Virus record (IMG/VR): IMGVR_UViG_3300020400_000017
Location: 1-35,314 of that record
DNA from: a virus
Length of the DNA stretch: 35,314 bases
Reading direction: 5' to 3' (one strand)
Shown: positions 2,917 to 35,314 of the stretch, piece after piece
Layout of the letters: the number at the start of each line of letters is the position of its first letter
Position numbering within the stretch: the first letter of the stretch is position 1
Translations under genes and position numbers: made by a program
Notes under the pieces: generated by a model
What the model saw: only the letters and a program-made list of their open reading frames with translations
Database searches by the model: none
What the model was told of the DNA's origin: nothing

Positions 2917-4455
2917 TTAAGTAGTTATTGTCAATACATTCGCACCCGTATAAGGATTGAACAAAAATCTCTTAGGTGTAGAACCTGGGTTTAAATTTCT
3001 CCAGTTTGCAAAGTTGCCATCTGCAGGATCATAGATTTTATCAGTTGTGCATAAACTATGAACTAAAGTTTTTAATTCTGCAGGTGTTAGTTGCGGGTTT
3101 ACAGATAGTAATAAACATAAAACACCTGCAACTTGAGGGCCTGCCATACTAGTACCTGATATATTAACTTGTTTATAACTAGAATTAGCATAATAGTTTT
3201 GACCACTTTTATCATTTGTTGTACTACAAGCACTCATAACATAAGTACCTGGGGCATAAATATCTACCGCAGGTCCGTGAACTGAATCTACACTTTTTTG
3301 ATCTTGAGTTGAACTATAAGCAGTACTATCAATATTTCCAACATTAAAAGCATTTACTGAATATGGAGATGAGCCTCTATTATAATATCCTGTACCAGCA
3401 GTTATTGTATAAGTGTTATTATAATCTGAACCTGTTGTTAAATCGTGAGTATAATAACTATTACCAGCAGAATGACAAATATGTATACCTGCATCTATCA
3501 TTTCATCTAAATCAGCATCAACTGAAGCAACTCGTAAAGGTGTTTTATATGGTGCTGAACCTGGAAATGCCTGAAACTTAAATGTTCTTAATTCAGCCAG
3601 TGTATCTATATCAGTTCCTGATTTAGCAGTACCTTGATAATTTAACGCTGAAGGTAAATCATTATGAGTTGTATTATATCCCCAAGACATATTTACGACT
3701 GTTGGTCTTCCTGCATTTGCACCTGACTTAGCATTATGCCAACCTTTTATACAATCAAAAGCATCAGCAATAGCAATACCTGTACCACTATCTCCTGTTC
3801 CTTCTAAACCTGAAAGTTTTTGTGCATATATTTTTGCCCCTTGAGCGTGACCGAAAGTTTTACCAACAGCGATACCAGCACAATGAGTGCCGTGACCATC
3901 ATAGTCTCTATCGTGATTTGCATTTTGAGTTCCTGAAACGCCTGAAGCAGTATACCAGTCCACAGTTGACCATCTATTAGAACCACTTGAGTCTTGAAAC
4001 TCAGGATGATCTGTTTGAATACCACTATCTTGAACTATGAAATCTACACCAGTGCCATCTGCTGTAAAATTATAATTATCACTTGTTGTTGTTCCTGTGC
4101 CGTAATTATTTGTCTCATTTTGACACCTTATTAATCCCCAATTTTGAAATGTGCCTGTGCTACTAGTTGTTTTATTATATGTACCTGATCTTGTAGCATC
4201 ATGGCCTATCACAGCGTTAGGAATTTTATCTGGTGGGACTTCGACATCTTCTACTCTAGGATCATTTTTAAGATCCTGTGCTTCAGATTCTTCTAAACCA
4301 TAGTGTGTGTTTCTAATTGATTTAGGTCTTGCATTTGCGACATCTACTGTACGATTAGGAATTTTACCTGTGCCAGAACTGGCAGTCATCTCTGAATTAA
4401 ACTGATCAGCGTCAACCCCTTTTTTGAGGGTGACTATATACTCTTTCTCCGCCAT
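2917..4455 (-). CDS. Subtilisin-like serine protease (peptidase S8)
   Basis: A complete S8 catalytic set is visible in 512 residues: Asp143 in VQDSG, His188 in DGHGTHCAG, the oxyanion Asn332 in SAGN, and Ser436 in SGTSMAGP. Residues 1-75 (YIVTLKKGVDADQF, then a region ending in DPRVEDVEVPPD) resemble an inhibitor I9-type propeptide, which in this family acts as a folding chaperone and is cut off. I see no signal peptide. It follows the fibre gene by 10 nt and shares its late promoter, which suggests a virion-associated protease, for example for maturing a fibre or attacking host surface protein. That role is inference. It is unrelated to the T4 prohead protease gp21. Confidence 0.85.
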   Translation of the reverse strand: MAEKEYIVTLKKGVDADQFNSEMTASSGTGKIPNRTVDVANARPKSIRNTHYGLEESEAQDLKNDPRVEDVEVPPDKIPNAVIGHDATRSGTYNKTTSSTGTFQNWGLIRCQNETNNYGTGTTTSDNYNFTADGTGVDFIVQDSGIQTDHPEFQDSSGSNRWSTVDWYTASGVSGTQNANHDRDYDGHGTHCAGIAVGKTFGHAQGAKIYAQKLSGLEGTGDSGTGIAIADAFDCIKGWHNAKSGANAGRPTVVNMSWGYNTTHNDLPSALNYQGTAKSGTDIDTLAELRTFKFQAFPGSAPYKTPLRVASVDADLDEMIDAGIHICHSAGNSYYTHDLTTGSDYNNTYTITAGTGYYNRGSSPYSVNAFNVGNIDSTAYSSTQDQKSVDSVHGPAVDIYAPGTYVMSACSTTNDKSGQNYYANSSYKQVNISGTSMAGPQVAGVLCLLLSVNPQLTPAELKTLVHSLCTTDKIYDPADGNFANWRNLNPGSTPKRFLFNPYTGANVLTITT

Positions 4456-5647: not shown

Positions 5648-8308
5648 TTATGCCTTATCAAAAGTTATTGTGGTATCATCAAAAGAAGTGGTAGTCGTAT
5701 CAAATCCTAGACCAGTAGGTGCAACATAGGCAGGTATTGCAATATTCCACTTAGTAAAAGGACTAGTATCTTTTGTTGCATCTGTAATACTCGCATTTGT
5801 TACCTTTTCAAATACATTTTGTAATTCTGCTATCGTTAATGCACGATTATTTACTGTAGTTGCAGTTCCTATCTGAGAAACAGGAACGCCTGATTGTGTA
5901 AATGCTAAACTTGATTCAGGCAAGTTCCCTGATTTTTGATTATAAATTCCGCCAAATACACTAGTGGCATTAAAAAATGCAGTTTTAGCTTTAGGACCTG
6001 CATATGCAAATCCTATCGTTTGTTCTGTGCCGCCGACATTGAAATCTAAATCTGCGCCATCTCCTACAACTTTAACTGTTATTCTTTGTTTTAATGTGAT
6101 ATCTCTTGTTGTTGAAGCCAATGCTGTGTCTATATCGGCTGCTTCTACATCACTTTCAGGATTACTTCTTAATGTTGTGCCGTCTGTTTCTGTTCCTAGT
6201 CTACGACCAAATACAGTAGAGAATAATTGTTCTAGAGTAAAGAACAATGGAGATTGTGAAAGACCAGATATTACGCCCTCAACAGGAACTGATATTTGAC
6301 CACTTACTCTATTTTGTATTCTAACCTCACCACTAACAGCAAATCCTGATGGGTGTATTGCCTTCTTGATATAATCTCTCCAGTTTGCGATTGTTTCGCC
6401 AACCTTAATAACATAAGAATAATCTTGATAATAAAAACTGTCTTGTATTCTTTTTGCTTTTTCAGAGCTAAACCCGTTTTGACTAATAAACTTTCCTGAT
6501 GTTTCAACAACTGTGCCGGTTGTTGCAGTTAAAGTTGCTGGATCTATCTTTTTAACAACACCAGTTGTGCCGCTTGAATATGTAATTGTTTCGCCAACAA
6601 CAGGAGTTCCTGATGTTGCAGTAAAAGAAACTATACTATTTGAAAATCCTGTAACTGTTCCTTCAGCACTTGATGTACCACCTGTAAAAGTTTCACCAAC
6701 GGTAACATTTCCTGATAAGGCACTATTTACCATATTAATAGGCACTTTTATTGTAGGTGTACCTGTGTAGTTTACGCCTGGATCTATTAATCGTGTTTCA
6801 ATAATTCTTCCTATTTCATCGCCGTATGCAATTACTGAAGCACCTGAACCACCACTACTTGTTACCGTGCCTGTTGGCGGTTTACTATATCCTGTTCCTG
6901 TTCTAACAATTCTTATATCTGTAATATCTTTTGTTGCACTTGTACCTGCCTCTTGTACAATTTTATTACCGGCATAGTGATCTAGAAATTGTGTATTATC
7001 TTCTAAAACAATATGATCATCGGTAGCCATACTATATGCTGAGACACTACCTGTCTCAGGTGCAAACCCACCATTTACTACTGATACTACAGCCTCAGGT
7101 GTATTGCCTCCAGAATTTGTTGTACTAAAACTAACTGAGTCACCTACAGCATAACCTGTACCGCCTGCTGAAATAATTATATCTGTTAATGGGCCTGTTC
7201 CTACTGCCTCAACACGGGCAGCTGCATCTGTTCCACCGCCGCCTGATATAGTTATTGTATCATTTACATTATATAAAGATCCATCATTTGTTATAGTAAA
7301 TCCACCTATGATTGTTTTAATAATGCCTTTTGCAGTTAGAGTGGAATCTGTGCTATCAATACCTATGATATTTTCATTATTTACAAAAGTACCATCTATC
7401 GAATTTTTATCTAACTCTAATTCAAATACATCTGTTCCTGATAAAATAAATTTAGTAACATCTATACATCTTGCTGATGCTGTGGAACTTGAGGTTGTCA
7501 TTGTGATTGTTTGACCTTTTAAATTTAGTAATGACCCTGCTGTTTGTGTTACTCTTAAAATTGTTCTAGTTTGCCAATCACCATTTGAAGGTTTTAATAA
7601 ATCTCTATTAGGATAATAAACATCTGCCTCCTCATTTAGTAGTAATCTAAAAAACAATTCATTTGCTTTTTTAGTTCCTTTCGCCTTATATAAGTCTTTT
7701 ATATTTTTTACTGTTTTTCTTTTATCTGTTAAATCAGCTAAATTATCAGTAATACCTGACATAAAAGATTTTCTCATTTCACCTAAAAAGTCAGAAATGG
7801 TTTTATCAGCGTCTGTATAGTTTAATAGTTGTTGAATATTTTGTATAGGATTTGCTCTATATTTACCTACTGTTGCTGTTGCACCTGAGGCACTGCCTGT
7901 AATTGTTTCACCAGTTTTAAATCTAGATTGTGCAGATATGAATAATTTTTTATTTGATATGTTTGTACTTAGTATAGTTGCTTGAGCACCAGTAGTAGAA
8001 CCTGTAACTGTTTCGCCATTTCTAAATGCTGATAAAAAACTATTTTCTTCTAGTATGATTGTATCGCCAACCTCATCTGTGGCATCTTCATAAACTAATT
8101 TTTGTATTGAAGCAACATTATCAGACTCTAATAATATTTCATCTTGCTCAGAAATATCTGTAAGTTGAAGTTCAGCTGCTTCTAAAAATACAAAATATGT
8201 TTCAAGAAAATCTGTAAATCCTGAATGATCTGATTTTACAAAATCAGGTGCCTGTTGGCCTACTAAGGACGATACTTTTTCTTTTAGTGTAAAATAACTC
8301 TCAGACAT
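5648..8308 (-). CDS. Large virion structural protein in the gp7 (baseplate wedge) position
   Basis: The 886-residue protein has an alpha-helical N-terminus (FTLKEKVSSL, then FTDFLETYFVFLEAAE) and a helical stretch around residues 165-240 (LLNYTDADKTISDFLGEMRK, then KAKGTKKANELFFRLL). Between and after these are beta-type repeats, GE(T)(V/I/F)TG followed by S/T/A-rich turns, at about residues 97, 132 and 540. It follows gp6 by 12 nt, where T4 has the wedge protein gp7 (1032 residues). I recognise it as a conserved marine T4-like structural protein, but the identity with gp7 rests on position, not on motifs. Confidence 0.6.
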   Translation of the reverse strand: MSESYFTLKEKVSSLVGQQAPDFVKSDHSGFTDFLETYFVFLEAAELQLTDISEQDEILLESDNVASIQKLVYEDATDEVGDTIILEENSFLSAFRNGETVTGSTTGAQATILSTNISNKKLFISAQSRFKTGETITGSASGATATVGKYRANPIQNIQQLLNYTDADKTISDFLGEMRKSFMSGITDNLADLTDKRKTVKNIKDLYKAKGTKKANELFFRLLLNEEADVYYPNRDLLKPSNGDWQTRTILRVTQTAGSLLNLKGQTITMTTSSSTASARCIDVTKFILSGTDVFELELDKNSIDGTFVNNENIIGIDSTDSTLTAKGIIKTIIGGFTITNDGSLYNVNDTITISGGGGTDAAARVEAVGTGPLTDIIISAGGTGYAVGDSVSFSTTNSGGNTPEAVVSVVNGGFAPETGSVSAYSMATDDHIVLEDNTQFLDHYAGNKIVQEAGTSATKDITDIRIVRTGTGYSKPPTGTVTSSGGSGASVIAYGDEIGRIIETRLIDPGVNYTGTPTIKVPINMVNSALSGNVTVGETFTGGTSSAEGTVTGFSNSIVSFTATSGTPVVGETITYSSGTTGVVKKIDPATLTATTGTVVETSGKFISQNGFSSEKAKRIQDSFYYQDYSYVIKVGETIANWRDYIKKAIHPSGFAVSGEVRIQNRVSGQISVPVEGVISGLSQSPLFFTLEQLFSTVFGRRLGTETDGTTLRSNPESDVEAADIDTALASTTRDITLKQRITVKVVGDGADLDFNVGGTEQTIGFAYAGPKAKTAFFNATSVFGGIYNQKSGNLPESSLAFTQSGVPVSQIGTATTVNNRALTIAELQNVFEKVTNASITDATKDTSPFTKWNIAIPAYVAPTGLGFDTTTTSFDDTTITFDKA

Positions 8309-10238: not shown

Positions 10239-11435
10239 TTATCTTAGTCTCTCTAAAAATGTTTCAACCGTAACCGGTTCAGGATGATTAACAACATAAA
10301 ATTCAATCCAGACTCTATATCTATTTTGATCTGGATTAGAATTAACATTTACTCTCACCAACCTTACTCTTGGTTCGTGATTTATTAAAACTTCTTCAAT
10401 CTTCTTAGCCAAAAAGACTTCAGTAAGTGGTGTCATAGGTTCAAATAAAATATCTCTTACATTTGATCCTATTTCTGGGTGAAAAGGTTTCTCATAATGA
10501 TTTAAGTTAATGAGATTTCTTACACTTCTTTTTACAGCATTTACACCTTCAAGTTTTACAATATCTTTTGTTGTAGGGTGTCTCGTAAAATTTAAATTCA
10601 AATCTTTCCATACTTTAGTATTTCTCTTAGTCCCCGTAGAGCTGGTATAATTATATGCCATACTTCTATTTATATTGGCAACTACGGACATTTTTAATAT
10701 TCTATCATAGTATCCTGCATAATTGTGAAGTCTAATAGTGAATGTGAAAGTTGTATCAGTCGTAACCGTGGGTGCAGTTCCTTCAATTCTATTATTAACT
10801 AGACTTAATCCATCAGGCAAACTACCTGATACTAATTCAGTATAGATATATCTAAATGCCTGACCACCTGCAGCCTTAAATTGTGAGACATAAGTAGGAC
10901 TATCATCAATTAATATTTTGCCTGATCCCCCAAAAGTGCCCTTGTTAAAATTTTGAGCAAAGTTAATACTACCTGTGGGTGCAAATGATGATAAGTTAGA
11001 ACTAACCCAAGATGTTTTTTCACTATTACCAGTCGAACCTGCTTCAGTTGTTAATATAGAGTAACTACCGTGTATTGACTTTACTAAATCTAATACGCCT
11101 TTACCACTATCTAAAAATACCTGAGGTAGTACAGATAAACCTGCAAAGAACCCAGGTGTATTATTTGATATTTGTTGTGTAATAGAGGTCGTAGTAGTAT
11201 CAGCATCTAAAAGATTATCAACACCATATAACTGAGCAAGTTTAATATTAAAACCTGCAAGTGTATTATCCATATCAACAAAGATAGTGCTAGATCCTGT
11301 TCTATGAGTATTTAAAAATAACTCTAAATCATTAGTTGAATTTTCTGTTTTAATAGGTAAATCTAGATTTATTGTTTGACCACTTTTGATATTTACAAAG
11401 TTATCATTATCCTGTACTGTCCAATCATTAGCCAT
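10239..11435 (-). CDS. 25: HAD phosphatase - Ig-like - gp25 baseplate wedge fusion
   Basis: Three domains are visible in 398 residues. Residues 50-195 are a HAD-type phosphatase: motif I DMDNT (Asp54, Asp56), motif II SILTT (Thr129/130), motif III Lys140 before SWV, motif IV ILIDDSP (Asp177, Asp178). The NTPGFFAGL stretch and the final KAAGG resemble the 5'(3')-deoxyribonucleotidase (NT5C) type. Residues 200-250 (SGSLPDGLSL, then NRIEGTAP) look like a He_PIG Ig-like domain. Residues 275-398 are gp25: DIVKLEGVNAVKRSVRNLI, FHPEIGSNVRDILFEPMTP and the WIEFYV end. T4 gp25 alone is about 132 residues. A late promoter inside the gene could make the gp25 part separately (ATG at 10661, 140 codons). 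It lies 2 nt after the PAAR gene. Domain calls are firm for gp25 and strong for HAD; any enzyme activity is inference. Confidence 0.85.
   Translation of the reverse strand: MANDWTVQDNDNFVNIKSGQTINLDLPIKTENSTNDLELFLNTHRTGSSTIFVDMDNTLAGFNIKLAQLYGVDNLLDADTTTTSITQQISNNTPGFFAGLSVLPQVFLDSGKGVLDLVKSIHGSYSILTTEAGSTGNSEKTSWVSSNLSSFAPTGSINFAQNFNKGTFGGSGKILIDDSPTYVSQFKAAGGQAFRYIYTELVSGSLPDGLSLVNNRIEGTAPTVTTDTTFTFTIRLHNYAGYYDRILKMSVVANINRSMAYNYTSSTGTKRNTKVWKDLNLNFTRHPTTKDIVKLEGVNAVKRSVRNLINLNHYEKPFHPEIGSNVRDILFEPMTPLTEVFLAKKIEEVLINHEPRVRLVRVNVNSNPDQNRYRVWIEFYVVNHPEPVTVETFLERLR
10667..10674 (-). promoter_or_regulatory. Internal late promoter for stand-alone gp25
   Basis: TATAAATA, then GAAGT, then ATG (10661) in frame with codon 259 of the fusion, at the boundary between the Ig-like and gp25 domains. 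The 5-nt spacing is the same as at 19319, 22551 and 31384. It predicts a leaderless message for a 140-residue gp25 of normal length. Confidence 0.6.
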
Positions 11436-15184: not shown

Positions 15185-15799
15185 CTACTTCCCGTTATAA
15201 TAATCAAACCAGCGTCTTACTATCTTAGGTACTATCCACTTTCTAGGATACCAAACTTTAACACCATCTAATTGTTGCTGTCTAGTGCAACCTTTCTTTG
15301 CCCAATACTTATAACTTGGCATAATGGTACCATCTGGTAACATAAACTCAAAACTTCTCTGTCTAGACTTCTTATCCAAATAAGAGAAACCTTTAAACAT
15401 AATAGATACCGCTTTGTCTTTGTATAATTCTATCTTATGAAAGTCATCTAATTTAGTATCACTACTAAACGACCCAGGCCGCCTGTTTTTGATAGTCTTT
15501 TCGCCTGTGTGTCTATTGACTATGATTTCTTTATAACCGCCGTAAACGATAAATGTGTGCATCCTCCATGGGTGATTATGGAAATCGGTATAGTCATTAT
15601 ACATTATGTTTATTACCAAATGATTTAGAATTGGTATCCAACCAAATGGGAATATTCTGAGTATGTAGAAAAATTTGCCATTACTACCTTCGACTGCTGG
15701 CATGGCATTAACTTCGTGAATGAATAACCAGTTCTTACAAAATCGTAAAAACCAGCCATCATTTTTTTCTTGTTCTTTTATTAAATCAATGTAATTCAT
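15185..15799 (-). CDS. Cupin-like protein with HxHPW motif
   Basis: I chose ATG 15799; a GTG at 15808 is possible. A cupin-type barrel is suggested by NDYTDFHNHPWRMHTFIVYG (two His as metal ligands) followed by a YKEIIVNRHTGEKTIKNRRPG strand series and a third His in DDFHKIEL. The ending is basic and aromatic (VWYPRKWIVPKIVRRWFDYY). Cupins of this kind bind a metal and may act as sugar or small-molecule modifying enzymes; the reaction is not evident. It overlaps the sulfotransferase gene end and faces the plus-strand cluster convergently. Confidence 0.6.
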   Translation of the reverse strand: MNYIDLIKEQEKNDGWFLRFCKNWLFIHEVNAMPAVEGSNGKFFYILRIFPFGWIPILNHLVINIMYNDYTDFHNHPWRMHTFIVYGGYKEIIVNRHTGEKTIKNRRPGSFSSDTKLDDFHKIELYKDKAVSIMFKGFSYLDKKSRQRSFEFMLPDGTIMPSYKYWAKKGCTRQQQLDGVKVWYPRKWIVPKIVRRWFDYYNGK

Positions 15800-16574
15800 A
15801 ATTTTCACTATAACCAGTTCTTCTGATTACCTCATCCTTTTCTTCTCTAGTATATTTATTAAGTTTAAAAGTAAACTGTCCTTCATATTGTTTTAATGGT
15901 ATACCACACAATTCTTTCATATTAAATAAATCCTCATATGCCACAGTATGATCAAACTTATGTTCTCTATAACACTTCAACATAATCTCCATATGTAGTT
16001 TATGATAGTTAATATAGTAATCATCATATTTAAGATTTGGTCTTTTATATTGCATAAACTGGCTACTCGCATTACCAATACCTGTTTGATGATACGCTAA
16101 GAAAGATAAAAAATGTTCTACAAAGTTTTTTCTATATAAAAATATTGTAGTTAGTGGTGCCCATTTTTCTAATAATTCTTTATAATTAAATCCTACACCG
16201 TAACCGTGTTGATCATCTTCATATAAATCCCAGCAGGTAAATTTAGCAACAAAAGGGCCGTTATCTACACAATGTTTTATTTGATCTTCTCTAGATAATG
16301 ACCTTATCTCTCTATCTAAATTATGAAGTTTTGATAAATTTTCTCTATACTCTTTTGATGATTCTTTTATAACTTTATAAAATTGATCACCCATGTATTG
16401 TAAACCTTTTTTATTTTGCATACCCATAAGGTCTTTTTGCATACCTTCTTCCATAACACCAGGTGCAATCTTACATAACTTTTCACCTACATTATATAAA
16501 TTATAGTGTGTTTCTAGAACATGGTTTAACCAACTTGAGCCACACCTAACAGGACATACAATCAAATAGTTCAT
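15786..16574 (-). CDS. Sulfotransferase family protein
   Basis: Sulfotransferases move sulfate from PAPS to hydroxyl groups. The N-terminus YLIVCPVRCGSSWLNHVLE is the 5'-phosphosulfate loop typical of the family, and LTTIFLYRKNFVEHFLSFLA is the 3'-phosphate-binding block (Arg in YRK, Ser in LSF). I take ATG 16574 because it overlaps the carbamoyltransferase stop as ATGA; an in-frame ATG at 16583 is also possible. About 262 residues, usual for the family. With the carbamoyltransferase and methyltransferase-like genes it suggests chemical tailoring of a glycan or metabolite. Confidence 0.8.
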   Translation of the reverse strand: MNYLIVCPVRCGSSWLNHVLETHYNLYNVGEKLCKIAPGVMEEGMQKDLMGMQNKKGLQYMGDQFYKVIKESSKEYRENLSKLHNLDREIRSLSREDQIKHCVDNGPFVAKFTCWDLYEDDQHGYGVGFNYKELLEKWAPLTTIFLYRKNFVEHFLSFLAYHQTGIGNASSQFMQYKRPNLKYDDYYINYHKLHMEIMLKCYREHKFDHTVAYEDLFNMKELCGIPLKQYEGQFTFKLNKYTREEKDEVIRRTGYSENYELH

Positions 16575-18211
16575 CTTGTCCATGTTTTACTACCTACAAC
16601 CATTTTATTAATACCTTCTGCTTCTTGAAATAGTTTTATTGCTTGTTCTCTAGTGCCACATATTGCTTCACCTTGTAAGTTTGCTGAAGTATTGAGTAAT
16701 ACAGGTATGCCTGTTAGTTTTTCAAACTCATCTAGTAATTCATAATATACAGGATTCATTTCTGGTGTTACCGTATTATGTCTGCAAGTACCGTCTCTAT
16801 GTGTCACCGCAGGTATACCTGAATACTTAACTTGACTATTGTACATCATAAAAGGACTATCAGTCATTTCAAAAAATCTATGTGCTTGATCTTGTTTCAC
16901 ACTAGCACCAAAAGGCCTCCAAGGTTCTCGTCTCTTAACTGCATTTATCTTTTGTTTACCATTTTTGATTGTTGGGTCCATAAGTATAGAACGATTACCT
17001 AACGCTCTAGGTCCTACCTCACCATGACCATTATACCATAGAACAACTTTACCGTTTGCAAGATCCTCAGCAGTTCTTTTAATAGTTTGGCTATCAGCAG
17101 TACCCCAAGATGGTTCATCACTTTGACAAAAAGGAAAGTTATCAAACTTAACTTCAAAATCATATTTCTTACCTAGATATGCTAAAGCACCTATTGATAA
17201 GCCTTCATCGCCACAATGAGGTGGTATCTTAATATCAAAACCCTCTTGTTTTAATCTTTGATTAATTACTACATTTAAAGCAACACCGCCTGTATAACCT
17301 ATCGGTTTACTTTTATCAAAGTTATCTTCAAATAACTTTATCATATAATTAACAAGTGTATTATGTGCTGATGCTACAAAATCTAACCAGTCTTTATTTT
17401 GAAATACTGCTTCACCCTCAAAAATAGATAATGGATAATTTAATAAATCAATGCCAAATAATTTACTATATTTTTCTATAACTCTACCATATGATTGTAG
17501 ACCCATAATCTTACCAGGTAAATCTAGAGAGTCATTAACTTCACAGCCTGTTGATAATCCCATTTTTAGTCCTATGGGTATCATGTAACTACCAATAGGC
17601 CAACCATCTTTGCCTATATTAAATATCTTATCATTAATTAATGCATACCTGCTACCTGAACCTTTACCATCCATAACAGCCTGTTGCTCATAATCTCTTA
17701 ATGTGCTGTATATGTGTAGTTTGTGATGGTCAATATCCTCAACTTTACAGTTCCAATTATTTTTAATTTCTTTAATAATTTTGTAATTTGCCCAAAGTAA
17801 AGGATCTAATGTTTTACTAGAAAATATATTATGTGTTGAAAAGACTGTTTTTGTTGCACTCATATCACTCGTATCAGTCGAGTAAATAATTTTTCTTGGA
17901 GTAGTAGGTGAACCACCACCAAAAACAACATTATCATCCTGATACAATTTCATCTTATCTACCATTGCTTGATGACTATGTTCTGAGCCATCTTCATAGA
18001 AGGCAGTACAATGAACCATATGTTTGATTTGTTTATGAGGTTCATCAACACCCCAAGATTTTAAAGTGTCAATCAACCATTCAAAGTTACCAGGGCCGTG
18101 TTTCTTACCACCAATACCTGATACTCTCTCATATTTTGAGTAATAAGACTTTCCGTCTTTATAAAGTGAAATATTGGAATCGTGGATTCCGATGTGCAAA
18201 CCTAAAAACAT
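16571..18211 (-). CDS. Carbamoyltransferase, NodU/TobZ family
   Basis: These enzymes make carbamoyl-adenylate from carbamoyl phosphate and ATP and transfer the carbamoyl group to a sugar or other hydroxyl. The N-terminal domain shows GLHIGIHDSNISLY and a DHHKLHIYSTL metal-type block; then GGVALNVVINQRL and the nucleotide-binding GEVGPRALGNRSIL. The C-terminal domain has REPWRPFGASV and VLLNTSANLQGEAICGTREQ. At 546 residues it is full length for the family. Such genes occur in marine T4-like phages. The acceptor is unknown; the neighbouring sulfotransferase may act on the same molecule. Confidence 0.9.
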   Translation of the reverse strand: MFLGLHIGIHDSNISLYKDGKSYYSKYERVSGIGGKKHGPGNFEWLIDTLKSWGVDEPHKQIKHMVHCTAFYEDGSEHSHQAMVDKMKLYQDDNVVFGGGSPTTPRKIIYSTDTSDMSATKTVFSTHNIFSSKTLDPLLWANYKIIKEIKNNWNCKVEDIDHHKLHIYSTLRDYEQQAVMDGKGSGSRYALINDKIFNIGKDGWPIGSYMIPIGLKMGLSTGCEVNDSLDLPGKIMGLQSYGRVIEKYSKLFGIDLLNYPLSIFEGEAVFQNKDWLDFVASAHNTLVNYMIKLFEDNFDKSKPIGYTGGVALNVVINQRLKQEGFDIKIPPHCGDEGLSIGALAYLGKKYDFEVKFDNFPFCQSDEPSWGTADSQTIKRTAEDLANGKVVLWYNGHGEVGPRALGNRSILMDPTIKNGKQKINAVKRREPWRPFGASVKQDQAHRFFEMTDSPFMMYNSQVKYSGIPAVTHRDGTCRHNTVTPEMNPVYYELLDEFEKLTGIPVLLNTSANLQGEAICGTREQAIKLFQEAEGINKMVVGSKTWTR

Positions 18212-30387: not shown

Positions 30388-30824
30388 TATACTATCCCTA
30401 AATCTCCTAATATCTTTCTATTCTTCATATGTTCTTCTTGAATATCATCTTTACTTTGACCATAATATGCAACAGCATGGCCTTGATTACACATTTCTTG
30501 ATTAACATTTAAACCATCACAAAATATTTCACCAAGAATACGACCAAACTTACCAGTCTCTTCGCCTTTATGTGTTTTAATAACTATCTTATCAGCATTT
30601 TTCAATGCATCTTTTAGAAAATCTTTAGACATAAGTCCATATTTCTTTTCTACTAAATCTCTTGTTCTACTTTCAGGTGTATCAATGCCGAATAGTCTTA
30701 CTCTACTTTTATACATTATATCAAAACCTAAGTCAATAATAACATCTATTGTATCACCGTCTACAACTTTAGTTACTTTATTAACTCTGTATGAAAAATC
30801 TGTTGGGTCTCCTAATTTTGCCAT
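30387..30824 (-). CDS. Staphylococcal-type (SNase) nuclease
   Basis: SNase enzymes cut DNA and RNA using Ca2+. In 145 residues the site is complete: metal-binding Asp22/Asp24 (KVVDGDTIDV), Arg43 and Glu51 (RVRLFGIDTPES) and Arg95 (GKFGRILGEIF), followed by NVNQEMCNQGHAVAYYG. No signal peptide is seen, so the protein works in the cytoplasm or in the virion. It overlaps its neighbours by 1 nt on each side within a tail operon, which suggests a late role, for example host DNA breakdown or a virion-linked nuclease. Confidence 0.85.
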   Translation of the reverse strand: MAKLGDPTDFSYRVNKVTKVVDGDTIDVIIDLGFDIMYKSRVRLFGIDTPESRTRDLVEKKYGLMSKDFLKDALKNADKIVIKTHKGEETGKFGRILGEIFCDGLNVNQEMCNQGHAVAYYGQSKDDIQEEHMKNRKILGDLGIV

Positions 30825-31384
30825 TATATCATCTTTCTTGTATCTGAGTAAACTTTTGCATCTGTAGCACCAACAAATCTTTGAACAGGCAAATTTAGTG
30901 CAACAGGCATTTCATTTACTTTTATATTTAAAAAGGCACTTCTTACATTACTAAAAAGATAAGACTTGATAGACGGTCTCACAGCTCTGATACCTGCTAC
31001 CTGTCTCCAACTTACATTTATAGTTGTTTTCTCATCAAAGTTATTATCACTAGCAAATCCTAGCATTCTTCTAAACAACTGTACCCTTAGGCCATAAGGT
31101 AAATAATGAAAGTTTATACCCCAAAATCTACCACCTCTTTGTTCAGTAGGTATGATTAGTGGGAATCTATCATAATAAGGTAAAGGTGCGCCATATGTTT
31201 TTGCCTGATACCCAAATAGATTAAATATACCAAACTTAGGTGTTGCTGATGCCTTACCTTGTCTTATCAATCCTCTTGCAGTAGTGCCTGATCCTGTAGC
31301 GTCTCGTACTTTTCTACGATACCAGTCCATAGACTTTCTAGTGTCACCTGCCTGCTTGACTATACTGTCTATAACTCCTGCCAT
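30824..31384 (-). CDS. Conserved T4-like virion protein, possibly gp2-like DNA end protector
   Basis: The 186-residue protein has the block LPYYDRFPLIIPTEQRGGRF, then GINFHYLPYGLRVQLFRRML, which I associate with a widespread myovirus family often labelled DNA end protector (gp2) or left unnamed. The N-terminus is basic (MDWYRRKVRDATGSGT). In T4, genes 2, 4 and 53 are adjacent, and here gp4 and gp53 lie nearby, which mildly supports gp2. The promoter TATAAATA ends 5 nt before its ATG, so it heads a late operon with a leaderless message. Function uncertain. Confidence 0.5.
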   Translation of the reverse strand: MAGVIDSIVKQAGDTRKSMDWYRRKVRDATGSGTTARGLIRQGKASATPKFGIFNLFGYQAKTYGAPLPYYDRFPLIIPTEQRGGRFWGINFHYLPYGLRVQLFRRMLGFASDNNFDEKTTINVSWRQVAGIRAVRPSIKSYLFSNVRSAFLNIKVNEMPVALNLPVQRFVGATDAKVYSDTRKMI

Positions 31385-31389
31385 ACTAC

Positions 31390-31397
31390 TATTTATA
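31390..31397 (-). promoter_or_regulatory. Late promoter inside the cyclase stop, leaderless
   Basis: TATAAATA, then GTAGT, then ATG 31384. The TAA stop of the adenylate cyclase gene lies within the promoter, which ties the cyclase operon physically to the phage late genes. Confidence 0.7.
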
Positions 31398-33240
31398 CTG
31401 GTTTATAGATGGTAATTAATTCTTCTTTACCTTTAACTTTGATCTTATCTACTTCGATTGACTTGATATTCTTTAGTTTTTCTTGAGTATAACTAGAATA
31501 TAATGTAGTTACAATACCACCATCATCTGTTTTATAGTTTCGTGTTGTTGCCTCTAGTCTTGCAGCTAGATTTACTGCATCCCCTATAACTGAATAATCA
31601 AATCTTGTATCACTACCCATATTACCTACAATACAAGTGCCAGTATTGACACCTGAACCTATATTGATATCAGGTAGACCTTTTTCTCTAAACATCACTT
31701 TTAATTTTTCAGTTTCTTCAGCACATTCTATTGCTGTCTTAACTGCCATCTCAGCATGATCTTCACAATCAAGTGGTGCATTCCAGAATGCCATGATACA
31801 GTCGCCCATATATTTGTCAACACAACCACCATTGTTTAAAACAATCTTTGTCATTCTGTTTAGATAATCATTTACAATCTCTACGAGGCCTTCAGGATCA
31901 TCATTATTTTTATAGTACTCAGAAATAGGTGTGAATCCTACAATGTCCATAAATAAGAAACTCATCTCTCTTCGCTCACCACCTAGTTTCAATTTGCTAG
32001 GATCTTTTTGCAATATAGCAACTTGTCTTGGATCTAAATATGTTTCAAATTGTTTTCTAATTTGTTGTTTTAATCTAAACTCTAAAACAAACCGATTAAA
32101 TATACTATGCATACCAACTATTGTCAAGCAGATAATGGCCCAACTTACATCTGCCAATATCAAATACTTAGCAAATAAAAAATATGAGACATATATCAAA
32201 CTGATATAGGTAAGAATTAGGAATATGCCTACAAACCAATAAGGTGTAAATCTTGCCAATATCACTATTAAGACACCTAGGATAATAGAAACCAATAATT
32301 CTAGTATTAGAGAGTAATCATATCTGTTAATTTGGTCTCCGTCTAATACCGTCTGTAAAGTCGAAGCAGATAACATATAATCATACTGTTCCCCGTTTGG
32401 GGTTGCAACTATACTAGATAACCCCTCTGCTGTCAAGCCAATTATTACAGTCTTACCTGCAAACTCGGAAAAGTCTTGACTCGCTGCTGATAATGTGTTA
32501 TATTCTTTCTTCCATCTTAACCAAATTCTGGCATGTGGATCAGTCTCAATGGTATCATAACCTGGCACTCTAACAGCAATAACTCCCCCTTCGCCAGCCT
32601 TAATCTGATAACTAGGATCGCCTGTTGCCACTCTAATAGTTTCTAGTGCTATTGCAGGATAAGTCTCATCACCAATTTTCATAATTAGTGGCACTCGTCT
32701 AACAACACCATCTATCTCAGGTGCTGTATTGATAACACCCACACCATCTGCATACTGCCCTAGTTCAGGTATTGGTCCTAACATACCTGGCCATTCATAT
32801 AACCAAGGTAGAGGATCACCTATTTTTGCAACACCTCTTGGTACAGCATTCTTGTTTATTTGTGTAGTGCCGACTTGTGCTATAACAACACCCATTTGAT
32901 ATATCGTATTTACAAATGCCTCATCACCACCCATTCTATCATACTCAGAAAATAATATAGGCATTACAATTATACCTACTTGTGCTTCTCTTAACTTAAC
33001 AACAAGATCAGCAAGTACCCTTCTATCCCAAGGCCATTGACCATACTTTTCAATAGACTCTTCATCTATGGTTACTATACCTATATCTTGAGATAATTCT
33101 TTTGTTTCTGACTGTAATAAAAAATCAAAAGATTTAAGTCTCATCATTTCTTTTAAATAAGGATCACCTAAACCTATGACTGTTAATATTGCAAGTGTTA
33201 ATAAACCTATTGTCCAGTGTGTGAATATTTTAGAAATCAT
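31393..33240 (-). CDS. Membrane adenylate cyclase with CHASE2 sensor domain
   Basis: A class III cyclase making cAMP from ATP. Order in 615 residues: one membrane span (about 10-25), an extracytoplasmic CHASE2 sensor (about 30-300, with SQDIGIVTIDEESIEKYGQW, PWDRR and GVGVINTAPEIDGVVRRVPL), three spans (about 310-375) and the cyclase domain (about 400-610). Catalytic residues are intact: metal-binding Asp432 (FMDIVGFT) and Asp480 (KYMGD), adenine-type Lys476, Asp548, and Asn557 and Arg561 (GDAVNLAARLE). So it should be an active adenylate rather than guanylate cyclase. It overlaps the 55-residue gene by 11 nt. The signal sensed is unknown; FecR-domain genes often accompany such cyclases in bacteria. 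Confidence 0.92.
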   Translation of the reverse strand: MISKIFTHWTIGLLTLAILTVIGLGDPYLKEMMRLKSFDFLLQSETKELSQDIGIVTIDEESIEKYGQWPWDRRVLADLVVKLREAQVGIIVMPILFSEYDRMGGDEAFVNTIYQMGVVIAQVGTTQINKNAVPRGVAKIGDPLPWLYEWPGMLGPIPELGQYADGVGVINTAPEIDGVVRRVPLIMKIGDETYPAIALETIRVATGDPSYQIKAGEGGVIAVRVPGYDTIETDPHARIWLRWKKEYNTLSAASQDFSEFAGKTVIIGLTAEGLSSIVATPNGEQYDYMLSASTLQTVLDGDQINRYDYSLILELLVSIILGVLIVILARFTPYWFVGIFLILTYISLIYVSYFLFAKYLILADVSWAIICLTIVGMHSIFNRFVLEFRLKQQIRKQFETYLDPRQVAILQKDPSKLKLGGERREMSFLFMDIVGFTPISEYYKNNDDPEGLVEIVNDYLNRMTKIVLNNGGCVDKYMGDCIMAFWNAPLDCEDHAEMAVKTAIECAEETEKLKVMFREKGLPDINIGSGVNTGTCIVGNMGSDTRFDYSVIGDAVNLAARLEATTRNYKTDDGGIVTTLYSSYTQEKLKNIKSIEVDKIKVKGKEELITIYKPV

Positions 33241-33397
33241 AGTCTATACCATTTAATGAATAAGTTTTGCCATTGAAACCTTTATCCATCTTTTCAATCT
33301 CAGTCATTTTATCACCATCTTTTCTCTCGTAAGGATTAAAGTGTGGTTTCTTTTCTTCTTTTTTCTTCTTTTTGAATATATTTAATATCTTTTTCAT
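33230..33397 (-). CDS. 55-residue basic protein of unknown function
   Basis: ATG 33397 overlaps the stop of the MIP18-like gene (TAATG), and its stop overlaps the cyclase start by 11 nt. A very basic start (MKKILNIFKKKKKEEKKP) precedes a polar part (FNPYERKDGDKMTEIEKMDK) and an acidic-aromatic end (YSLNGIDYDF). No family recognised. Its coupled position between the Fe-S-related genes and the cyclase suggests a linked role or simply a translational bridge. Confidence 0.55.
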   Translation of the reverse strand: MKKILNIFKKKKKEEKKPHFNPYERKDGDKMTEIEKMDKGFNGKTYSLNGIDYDF

Positions 33398-33720
33398 TAC
33401 CAACCCATTATAAATTTTGTTTCTTCAGGAACCATATGCATACCAAATGGTGGATCAAATGTAAGTTCAACTGTACAATCTTTTACACCTTCTACTTTTA
33501 GTCCTGCATTTTTTATATCTTGTTGAATTTGATCTGCCATAGGACAGGCAGGACTTGTTAGTGTGTGTTTTATATTTACAACATCATCATCTGATACTGT
33601 TATGTCGTATATTAGTCCTAGTTTTATAACAGAGATGCTAGGCATTTCAGGATCAAACACCTTCTCTAAATTATCTCCTACTTGAGATATTATCTTATTC
33701 TTCTTCGGATCTAAGCTCAT
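33397..33720 (-). CDS. MIP18/DUF59 family Fe-S assembly factor (SufT/PaaD-like)
   Basis: Members of this family help mature Fe-S proteins. The 107 residues show the family wording FDPEMPSISVIKLGLIYDI, then VNIKHTLTSPACPMADQI with the conserved Cys59, and a closing VELTFDPPFGMHMV. Length is normal for a single-domain member. It overlaps the CHCC zinc protein gene by 26 nt and follows the ferredoxin, which makes sense if it helps assemble the ferredoxin clusters. Role in a phage is inference. Confidence 0.85.
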   Translation of the reverse strand: MSLDPKKNKIISQVGDNLEKVFDPEMPSISVIKLGLIYDITVSDDDVVNIKHTLTSPACPMADQIQQDIKNAGLKVEGVKDCTVELTFDPPFGMHMVPEETKFIMGW

Positions 33721-33871
33721 AAGTCATACTACAATATGGACACACCATTTCTGTATCTTCTTCTTTCATTGTTAAGTATACCAAAGGATGACCCTCTGAT
33801 GGGTGCATACCTTCTTTTATTAATCCATCGCAAGTAAATTTTCTTGTTTCTGTTTTAATCTTGTAATCCAT
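33695..33871 (-). CDS. CHCC zinc-finger protein (NDUFS6/zf-CHCC family)
   Basis: 58 residues from ATG 33871, overlapping the ferredoxin end by 17 nt and the MIP18 start by 26 nt. The four ligands of the zf-CHCC family are in order: Cys14 (TCDG), His28 (SEGHPLVYL), Cys44 and Cys47 ([11 protein letters not shown]). In mitochondria the related NDUFS6 is a zinc subunit of complex I, and alphaproteobacteria carry a short form of about this size. A phage copy suggests capture from an alphaproteobacterial host and an effect on respiration or on Fe-S proteins; that effect is inference. Confidence 0.85.
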
Positions 33872-34178
33872 ATTTTTCTAATTTATTCTTCTCTTCAGCA
33901 AATAATTCTGCATCAGGATAAGAATCTTTCTTTACTGTTATATTAGGCCACTTCTCACTATATTCCTCATTCAATTTATACCACTTATCACCCACATCTT
34001 CAGTATCTTCAATAATAGCATCAACAGGACATTCAGGTATACAAACTCCACAATCAATACATTCTTCTGGATTGATTACTAACATATTAGGTCCTTCATA
34101 AAAACAATCTACAGGACAAACCTCAACACAATCTGTATGCTTACATTTAATACATTTATCATTCACTAAATGAGTCAT
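33855..34178 (-). CDS. fdxA: Seven-iron ferredoxin FdxA ([3Fe-4S][4Fe-4S])
   Basis: Low-potential electron carrier. All nine Cys of the Azotobacter ferredoxin I pattern are present: Cys9, 12, 17, 21, 25 ([20 protein letters not shown]) and Cys40, 43, 46, 50 ([16 protein letters not shown]). The family tail with [14 protein letters not shown] is also there. Length 107 is normal for alphaproteobacterial FdxA. It stands between the curlin-like gene and the CHCC zinc gene in a one-strand operon. The similarity to bacterial FdxA is so close that fairly recent capture from a host is likely. It differs from the plant-type ferredoxin known in cyanophages. Confidence 0.95.
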
Positions 34179-34200
34179 AATATTTAAAGTTGACGAGGTA

Positions 34201-34548
34201 TTATTGATTAAGAGTCATGGTGCAAAATGAATGCCCACAAAATAAATTAGCGTTATAATTTTTATTATTACCTGTTTGTGTTATAAAAATTGATGAACCA
34301 TTACTTGTTCTACCATCAACATCTATATTGATATTATTATCGTTACCTACTTGAGAAAAATCTAATTCAAAGTTGTCCATACTTTGTACATCTAAATCAA
34401 TATTATTATCTTCACCGTCTTGTAAAATATCAAGATCACCACCATCGCTAGTTATGATAGTCAGGTCAAAGTCATTTGCATCTGCCTTGTTAGGTATAAA
34501 CCCAATCAAAAAATACAAACTAATTAGACTGAATAATAGTAATTTCAT
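34201..34548 (-). CDS. Secreted curlin-repeat (CsgA-like) protein
   Basis: Curlin repeats build amyloid fibres on cell surfaces. The 115-residue protein has a signal peptide (hydrophobic 1-18, likely cut after ADA at 24). After that come three Q-x-G-x-x-N units: [24 protein letters not shown] and [12 protein letters not shown], the curlin signature, and a closing pair of Cys (FCGHSFC). A strong AGGAGG precedes ATG 34548, which overlaps the FecR-domain gene by 29 nt. It is shorter than CsgA, so it may be a minor fibre subunit or a nucleator-like protein. Confidence 0.75.
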
Positions 34549-35314
34549 TTGAATTTCCTCCTATCTCGTAATCATAAATCTCATCATCACCTTGTATAAT
34601 ATTTATATTGTACCCATACTCTTGATCTAGTCTCAATTCAAGATAGTTTGCCTCTGTTTCTCTTATAACTAACCATTCTGGTTCTTCATTCAATATTATG
34701 ATACCTGTTTCTTCATCTTTACCTGTGGCAACTCCTGTTCCTGACTTCTTTTTATCGAACTCACTTCTCATCTTTTTTGCTAATTGTTCGTTCAGCTGTT
34801 TTAAAATATCACCTAAAAAATTCTGTTCTAAAAAATCTATATCAAGTGCTGTTGCCCAAGCACTTTCTTCCTCTTCTAAATAGTCTACATCTAAATCGTC
34901 AAATTGTAGAAAGTCTAGATCGAGAGCATCTGCAACCTCAATATATTCTGACTGTTCTAATTGTTCAGTTATTGCAGGCGGTCTTGATATAATCAATAGA
35001 TTGTTTATCATATTCTCATCTAGACCTAGCGTTACAGGTTTCATAGGTGTGCTAGAAACTGTATCAACAACTGTGGCCTGAAATGCCTGATTAAGTATAA
35101 CTTGTCCTGCATCTGATTCTACTGATATCTCACCTACATAACAAGCACCAGTAGTATTACAACTAGGTAGTAGTATGATAGTTGAACTACCTAACTCGTC
35201 TACAGTCATTGAAAAATCTGTGCCTCTAACACCTATTGTTGCTGTAGGTGTCTTTATTTTTATACTTGTAGGATTAGTTTTTGCAATCTGACCTGAGGCA
35301 TATCTAACTGTGCC
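34520..35314 (-). CDS. FecR-domain protein, N-terminus beyond the window
   Basis: The frame is open to the right edge, so the 5' end is missing. Visible at the edge is the FecR core: RYASGQIAKTNPTS, then the diagnostic KTPTATIGVRGTDF and SMTVDE. FecR-domain proteins are periplasmic sensors or wall-binding modules often next to CHASE2 cyclases. The middle carries three similar acidic units (LDLDFLQ, LDVDYLE, LDIDFLE), and the end has NINIIQ and EITIIQSN strands that resemble curlin repeats. Overlap with the curlin-like gene suggests that they act together. Confidence 0.75.
   Translation of the reverse strand, partial: GTVRYASGQIAKTNPTSIKIKTPTATIGVRGTDFSMTVDELGSSTIILLPSCNTTGACYVGEISVESDAGQVILNQAFQATVVDTVSSTPMKPVTLGLDENMINNLLIISRPPAITEQLEQSEYIEVADALDLDFLQFDDLDVDYLEEEESAWATALDIDFLEQNFLGDILKQLNEQLAKKMRSEFDKKKSGTGVATGKDEETGIIILNEEPEWLVIRETEANYLELRLDQEYGYNINIIQGDDEIYDYEIGGNSNEITIIQSN
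34600..34607 (-). promoter_or_regulatory. Weak candidate late promoter for the curlin-like gene
   Basis: Minus-strand TATAAATA inside the FecR-domain gene, 51 nt before ATG 34548. It lacks the following GT; it may be chance in AT-rich coding sequence. Confidence 0.25.

Follow-up and report, generated by a model that had tools for sequence, protein, structure and literature searches.

Why would a T4-like phage carry genes for a ferredoxin and other iron–sulfur (Fe-S) or redox proteins between genes for surface proteins and the gene for an adenylate cyclase? The question is raised by a marine virus of bacteria, record IMGVR_UViG_3300020400_000017 of IMG/VR, whose 35,314 bp are called the window here. 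Seven genes on its minus strand (31393-35314) overlap or nearly touch, as a sequence-only reading of this DNA had claimed; they encode a FecR-domain protein, a short curlin-like protein, the ferredoxin FdxA, a CHCC zinc-finger protein, a SufT-like protein, a small open reading frame (ORF) product that we call p55, and an adenylate cyclase with a CHASE2 domain. The locus is real, intact and free of chimeric joins, a variation on a viral curli operon that is already known. What is new here is the Fe-S cassette between curlin and cyclase, which close relatives carry whole, in part or not at all. On balance, we favour the reading that the window holds the tail end of the known pelagimyophage curli (type VIII secretion) operon, with Fe-S cargo in its last slot and with FecR-CHASE2 sensing.

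The genes are tightly packed. Along the minus strand, the FecR gene (34520-35314), whose 5′ end lies outside the window, overlaps by 29 nucleotides (nt) the gene of the short curlin-like exported protein (34201-34548; 115 amino acids (aa)), which occupies the place of the second curlin in viral curli operons. A gap of 22 nt separates the latter from the gene of FdxA (33855-34178), a 7Fe ferredoxin of the Azotobacter FdI type, and overlaps follow of 17 nt with the CHCC gene (33695-33871; 58 aa), 26 nt between this and the MIP18/DUF59 (SufT-like) gene (33397-33720), 1 nt at the ATG start of the p55 gene (33230-33397) and 11 nt between p55 and the cyclase gene (31393-33240; 615 aa). The gene identities and the same-strand operon proposed by the earlier reading are borne out, the curlin label being weaker than the others. 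p55 is an ORF call, a lysine-rich protein of 55 aa (57 aa with a TTG start) that matched nothing in Pfam or NCBIfam and gave a single weak PHROG match (E = 0.0084). Among the neighbour loci compared, it is present in contig L084 alone, and the bases at its start, TAATGAAAAAGATATT, are those found at the cyclase start of loci L005 and L085.

The core of this arrangement is known. In phage HTVC008M, gp14-gp19 encode CsgF, CsgG, a curlin-associated protein, a FecR-type protein, a second, long curlin-slot protein and the cyclase, the FecR-type and second curlin-slot proteins both being annotated as hypothetical; gp99-104 of Methylophilales phage Melnitz follow the same order, with FecR and curlin named in the annotation. 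The window shows the FecR-curlin-cyclase part of the order CsgF-CsgG-curlin-FecR-curlin-cyclase, L084 extends upstream to a CsgB-like gene and CsgG, and a sister contig (L086) has all six curli-operon genes, in the order from CsgF to gp19, together with Fe-S genes. According to the available portions of the respective papers, the viral curli operons of podo- and myoviruses include FecR and adenylate cyclase (PMC9599517), the curli genes of pelagimyophages belong to a hypervariable region that separates the replication module from the structural one (PMC7029224), and the curli pore has been discussed as a lysis device (PMC9004378). In the main texts, FecR and cyclase are absent from PMC9004378 by term counts and excerpts, the terms ferredoxin and iron-sulfur from PMC9599517, and ferredoxin, Fe-S and iron from PMC7029224. 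Within the literature searched, partly in excerpt (pelagiphage ferredoxins, Fe-S auxiliary metabolic genes, curli/FecR/cyclase and fdxA), we recognised no paper describing an FdxA-CHCC-SufT-like cassette; in themselves, genes for ferredoxin and Fe-S assembly have been described in other phages (PMC7678222 and PMC8940887, also in excerpt). The sequence-only reading had held the whole combination to be new in a virus. That fails for the core of surface genes and cyclase, because HTVC008M, Melnitz and PMC9599517 already show it, and stands for the Fe-S insert, which is unreported in the literature searched.

The operon is firmly joined to the phage. PHROG profile searches found tail and baseplate genes of T4-like type in the window, and 8 nt beyond the cyclase gene begins gp2 (30824-31384, minus strand; phrog_429, E = 8.3e-41), the DNA end protector and first gene of the phage structural block. 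The cyclase stop codon (31393-31395) overlaps the late promoter TATAAATA (31390-31397, minus strand), as the earlier reading had noted. Across relatives, TATAAATA occurs no more than 40 nt from the cyclase stop in 22 of the 23 loci where gp2 follows the cyclase (the window not among them), compared with 4/60 loci without gp2 there and 0/332 control windows taken from within the cyclase gene. Since the motif tracks the cyclase-then-gp2 loci, the promoter belongs to gp2 and the junction is normal in these phages; TATAAATA at the cyclase stop does not drive the cyclase. The whole window has 12 matches to TATAAATA versus 7.0 expected, and 7 shuffles reach as many. A candidate late promoter within the operon, ahead of the curlin gene (34600-34607), was set aside: the same octamer occurs at the same place in 8/53 FecR genes and is probably bound to the codons. 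L084, a separate contig, is 99.6% identical to the window over 5,273 nt spanning the junction (blastn) and has exactly the same gene order; L085 and L086 have it without p55 and with a longer curlin. With the recurrent junction and the L084 match, the seven-gene set is part of the phage genome, as had been proposed, and no sign of a chimera was seen.

How the Fe-S genes relate to the operon is seen from the slot between curlin and cyclase. The insert, delimited by blastn segments (968 nt, 33232-34199, minus strand; window-oriented 1116-2083), is missing in L005, where curlin stop and cyclase start overlap as TAATG, and the slot is likewise empty in L004. L023 and L165 have the SufT-like gene only, L085 and L086 (99.3% identical to each other) have the FdxA, CHCC and SufT-like genes, and the window and L084 have these three plus p55. 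A quick tree built from 31 of the 86 cyclases puts the four carriers it includes into one seven-row clade with three empty-slot relatives (Shimodaira–Hasegawa-like approximate likelihood-ratio test (SH-aLRT) support 100), so at least two slot changes are needed. A scan from the cyclase gives no frequency, because it covered the 80 best loci only and L084, L085, L086 and L165 lie outside them; among the matches listed, a curlin gene stands upstream in 69 of 80, and in one of these 69 (L023) a Fe-S gene lies between.

The same genes also occur elsewhere in related phages. Of eight contigs found by a SufT-like scan, five have the gene in the curlin-cyclase slot and three (L166, L167 and L168) have it some 2-3 kb before gp59, and FdxA of the window type lies behind gp32 (L088, L089, L090 and L168) or between gp32 and CsgF (L087); L088 and L166 are the same contig, and in contigs with Fe-S genes near gp59 or gp32 (L087-L090, L166-L168) the slot is not visible. 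In a FdxA tree built from few columns, the window copy and six copies near gp32 or related to these form one clade (98/85), which is close to SAR11 FdxA (87/91, outside the strongest support class). The grouping of the window FdxA with copies located after gp32 or ahead of CsgF implies that FdxA has moved within the phage family. A scan for the CHCC gene itself gave three contigs, and a more distant phage, L159, has another copy. Acquisition as a single bacterial block is unsupported: within up to 4 kb on each side of cellular FdxA (tblastn, E ≤ 0.01), neither a SufT-like nor a CHCC gene was found at any of 80 loci, some with short flanks. The Fe-S genes are under purifying selection, with ratios of nonsynonymous to synonymous substitution rates of 0.045 and 0.088 for FdxA (a third pair being saturated), 0.116 for CHCC and 0.111-0.133 for the SufT-like gene; these values do not exceed those of gp2 (0.133-0.164), and the cyclase gave 0.094-0.250. 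It is well supported that the Fe-S set looks like removable, insertable cargo.

Profile scores and cysteines clearly place FdxA in the 7Fe ferredoxin family. It exceeds the equivalog cut-off of NF045490 (FdxA_Protbact; 153.4 versus 135 bits) and the Pfam cut-offs of DUF3470 and Fer4, matches PDB 1f5b and other structures, and shares nine invariant Cys columns with the other phage copies (14 in all). The CHCC protein matches PF10276 (zf-CHCC, NDUFS6-like) at 43.5 bits (cut-off 27), and the SufT-like protein matches PF01883 (FeS_assembly_P) at 60.8 bits, above cut-off, and TTHB138 and TM0487 in the PDB. Its name denotes membership of the DUF59 family only, because its scores fall under the SufT equivalog cut-offs (94.7 of 143.4 bits for TIGR02945; 81.1 of 202.6 bits for TIGR03406). 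SAR11 homologues of the SufT-like protein occur in 18/22 genomes with 35-48% identity, those of the CHCC protein in 4/22. In Staphylococcus aureus, the DUF59 protein SufT helps Fe-S protein maturation at high demand (PMC4982691, in excerpt). The phage genes most likely aid Fe-S maturation and supply electrons during infection.

At the other end of the set, the short curlin had no Pfam match and scored 29.8 bits (E = 4.9e-07) against the NCBIfam CsgA model, below the cut-off of 160. The Q-x-G positions of its three repeats are invariant across 27 aligned sequences, and a profile made from the C-termini of CsgB-like proteins matches the L084 short curlin at E = 7.8e-05. Its AlphaFold2 model is all-beta, with a predicted local distance difference test (pLDDT) value of 70; a fold search of the PDB with this model gave no significant match.

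FecR-type anti-sigma regulators are defined by a cytoplasmic anti-sigma part besides the FecR domain. The window copy of the phage FecR, cut by the edge, scores 21.1 bits against PF04773, under the cut-off of 24; the full-length protein of L084 (1168-2292; 374 aa) reaches 40.8 bits and has an N-terminus that looks signal-like by eye. In this 374-aa protein PF04773 was the sole match at E values up to 0.01, and no anti-sigma domain was found. We infer that a periplasmic partnership with CHASE2 describes the phage FecR better than a role in iron regulation. Its C-terminus carries a curlin-like NxIxIxQ tail in all 49 phage FecR rows (43 distinct tails), compared with 2/956 other neighbour proteins and 0/14 cellular FecR proteins beside CHASE2, by a pattern written after the data were seen. 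A stricter form of the pattern occurs in 0/45 CsgB-like proteins and 0/27 short curlins, whereas 49/49 FecR and 45/45 CsgB-like proteins share the looser ending [hydrophobic]-x-[hydrophobic]-x-Q. Homology of the tail to curlin was retained as a lead only, as profile comparisons fell short of significance: for the short-curlin profile against FecR, the best E among the matches listed was 0.0066 with the whole protein and 0.029 with the tail, the comparison of FecR and CsgB-like tails gave P = 0.029 over 18 columns, and the CsgB-like tail profile matched no FecR at E = 0.01.

The cyclase has strong matches to CHASE2 (PF05226, 142.4 bits, cut-off 26.3) and Guanylate_cyc (PF00211, 65 bits, above cut-off). 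D432, K476, D480 and R561 are present in 86/86 sequences, and S550 and N557 in 85/86. We take D432 and D480 to be the metal-binding aspartates, K476 to select adenine, S550 to form the second adenine site, and N557 and R561 to act on the transition state. Judged by these residues, the phage protein is a class III cyclase whose catalytic residues are intact, and cAMP is its predicted product. Its cyclase domain resembles PycC models (best E = 2.4e-25), and a Pycsar defence system, which pairs a cyclase with an adjacent effector, was considered and rejected: none of the six other operon proteins searched matches PADLOC.

The host of the window phage is inferred. The nearest isolates by baseplate wedge protein are Pelagibacter phage Mosig (54.3%), HTVC008M (54.0%) and Melnitz (52.5%), and we took as the likely host order the one to which G006, a genome with a Pelagibacteraceae locus, belongs, presumably Pelagibacterales. 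A CHASE2 protein is present in 21/117 genomes of this order, and FecR lies directly upstream of it at 12 of the 21 loci (L272, L273, L282-L288 and L292-L294), at least one other locus (L281) being too short to show. Four CHASE2 proteins of the 21 loci were scanned, one of them beside FecR (L272), and all four have a SpoIIE phosphatase domain. FecR also accompanies CHASE2 cyclases in Campylobacterota (PMC9239204), and the Sinorhizobium meliloti FecR protein SMc02177 is numbered next to the receptor cyclase CyaD1 (SMc02176; PMC5498481), according to the available portions of both papers.

What would read cyclic AMP (cAMP) in such a host? The class III cyclase domain PF00211 was found in none of 197 genomes of the likely host order and none of 32 in an overlapping set, compared with 5 of 14 controls. 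The CRP-type DNA-binding domain PF13545 exceeded its cut-off in 0/197 genomes and in 14/14 controls, with weak partial matches below cut-off in 26 of the 197. The cyclic-nucleotide-binding domain PF00027 was present in 15/197 genomes versus 10/14 controls; fourteen of these matches are weak, at 27.7-29.2 bits: 13 of them fall in a frame of 870 codons, the other in one of 372 codons close to a contig end. The fifteenth reaches 49.3 bits in a 205-codon frame. No PF00027 domain was found in 17 phage records, many of them fragments, that include HTVC008M, Melnitz, Mosig and the window. The searches covered PF13545, PF00027 and PF00211, class I cyclases and other receptor types being outside them; the named host-order genomes are mostly single-cell or metagenome assemblies, and OM43, the Melnitz host, is outside the sample. 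Within these limits, the step of the sequence-only reading in which cAMP resets host metabolism has no known receiver in the likely host order.

In the favoured reading, gene order, conservation, nested presence and absence, and purifying selection come directly from the comparisons, and the remaining steps are conditional. Three Fe-S/redox genes and a small ORF would have been inserted into the last slot of the CsgF-CsgG-curlin-FecR-curlin-cyclase operon. FecR would be exported and serve as periplasmic partner of the CHASE2 sensor domain, with exchangeable outputs, and the status of the envelope or fibre may change cAMP output through this pair. FdxA, the CHCC protein and the SufT-like protein would be separate cargo, providing a host-type ferredoxin and help with Fe-S maturation in infection, and may ride in the operon because this slot puts up with added genes whose start and stop codons overlap and are probably coupled. 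Several results weigh against this reading. The FecR structure model is unusable (pLDDT 37.6), and in other Pseudomonadota FecR lies beside CHASE2 in 3/30 loci, as detected with a profile seeded from viral FecR. In S. meliloti, smc02177 is dispensable for signal perception (PMC5498481, in excerpt), which counts against FecR as an obligatory sensor part. Within the limits given above, there is no known receiver for phage cAMP in the phage records and almost none in the likely host order. Finally, FdxA recurs with a SufT-like protein and an A-type carrier at three loci of other phages (L137, L140 and L144), a hint that generic cargo may be too unspecific a label for the Fe-S set.

A more specific use is possible, if doubtful: the set would serve one phage enzyme, with FdxA as electron donor and the SufT-like and CHCC proteins building its clusters, and with ribonucleotide reductase, ThyX, a radical S-adenosylmethionine enzyme such as QueE, or heme oxygenase/bilin reductase as candidate clients. 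In the three loci just named (FdxA at 6001, 6001 and 2398, respectively), genes for QueD, a SufT-like protein, FdxA and an IscA-type carrier lie close together, and L145/L146 have an IscA-FdxA pair, by domain scans of one member per cluster. HTVC008M has an annotated ferredoxin between ribonucleotide reductase genes, Mosig has annotated bilin reductase and heme oxygenase, and ThyX-like ORFs lie within 3 kb of FdxA in 16/81 loci; a clamp-loader-like gene does so in 43/81 (both named by eye, as were some neighbours). However, the scanned window proteins, a subset of its ORFs, include no such client, and the FdxA clade of the window, known from short contigs, has no known client either. The sequence-only reading had instead joined everything into one integrated circuit: CHASE2 and the surface pair detect a superinfecting phage or the state of the envelope, cAMP resets host metabolism, and the Fe-S genes keep electrons flowing during infection. 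Here cAMP would act via host regulators and the Fe-S genes would belong to the same response. Genes packed with overlapping starts and stops, probably co-translated, and a cyclase intact by its residues would suit such a circuit, yet the relatives speak against it, with Fe-S genes missing from the slot in L004 and L005, the SufT-like gene alone in L023 and L165, and Fe-S genes near gp59 or gp32 in the sister phages. With a Fe-S gene in only one of the 69 curlin-bearing loci listed (not a frequency), and with no CRP-type domain over cut-off and no class III cyclase in 197 host-order genomes, we consider it improbable.

Iron sensing in the line of PMC9599517 (in excerpt) would make FecR an iron-dependent curli regulator and the Fe-S genes a link between operon and iron state. 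The FecR domain and the shared operon fit; nevertheless, the phage protein has the FecR domain only, FecR accompanies CHASE2 proteins in some cells, and most relatives compared have FecR with no Fe-S genes nearby, all of which makes this highly improbable. An assembly chimera, in which phage structural genes were wrongly joined to a bacterial fragment, deserves practically no credence: it is refuted by the recurrence of junction and promoter, diverged populations included, and by the L084 contig across the junction. There is also a conjecture, rather unlikely in our view, that the phage installs a second messenger foreign to its host, where FecR, whose C-terminus is curlin-like, would couple the fibre made by the phage to the CHASE2 cyclase, and cAMP output would follow the state of fibre or outer membrane in a cell that has neither a class III cyclase nor a CRP-type receptor. 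Such cAMP might act via an as yet unidentified receptor, via the curli pore on neighbouring cells, or as an ATP sink.

Returning to the favoured reading of a curli operon with added cargo, the last operon slot takes up Fe-S genes stepwise, which marks the cargo as separable from the core. The likely host order has next to no CRP-type receptors or class III cyclases, if any, which raises the question of what reads the phage-made cAMP. A cyclase with no known receiver is the most interesting point of the locus, and the question can be addressed in cultured HTVC008M with HTCC1062.

Elsewhere in the window, the gp25 baseplate wedge protein (10239-11435; 398 aa) has an N-terminal part that matches phrog_2643 (5′-3′ deoxyribonucleotidase); Pfam shows gp25 alone, and a fusion is possible. 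An S8 peptidase of the subtilase family (2917-4455; 512 aa) lies within the phage structural region, and 15185-18211 holds a protein with a PHROG match to cysteine dioxygenase (Pfam: none) and a Nol-like carbamoyltransferase, with 2-oxoglutarate oxygenases nearby.

Compared with Azotobacter vinelandii ferredoxin I and FdxA_Protbact, the phage FdxA matches over nearly its full length and conserves the cluster cysteines; it differs in being phage-borne, and it is up to 74% identical to SAR11 FdxA. The bacterial clusters of Campylobacterota (PMC9239204) and S. meliloti (PMC5498481), as described in the available text, likewise combine a FecR-domain protein with a CHASE2 cyclase. They add a phosphodiesterase or a CRP-family regulator, whereas the 17 phage records had no cyclic-nucleotide-binding domain, phosphodiesterases being outside the search. 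The FecR and CHASE2-SpoIIE pair of the likely host order also has FecR directly upstream of the CHASE2 protein, but with a phosphatase output where scanned, 26-27% identity to the phage cyclase and a lysine-rich FecR tail in place of the curlin-like tail of the phage protein. Closest are the viral curli operons of PMC9599517, HTVC008M and Melnitz, which share the gene order on a T4-like or podovirus backbone. The window FecR (phrog_37870, E = 1.7e-106) is 67.7% identical to that of HTVC008M, and the window cyclase is 67.5% identical to that of HTVC008M and 50.9% to that of Melnitz over 99% of the length. In both isolates the second curlin is far longer (441 and 338 aa, respectively, versus 115 aa), and the cyclase is convergent with tail genes, whereas in the window gp2 follows it on the same strand. 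Unlike either, the window and its close relatives have Fe-S genes after the second curlin and before the cyclase.

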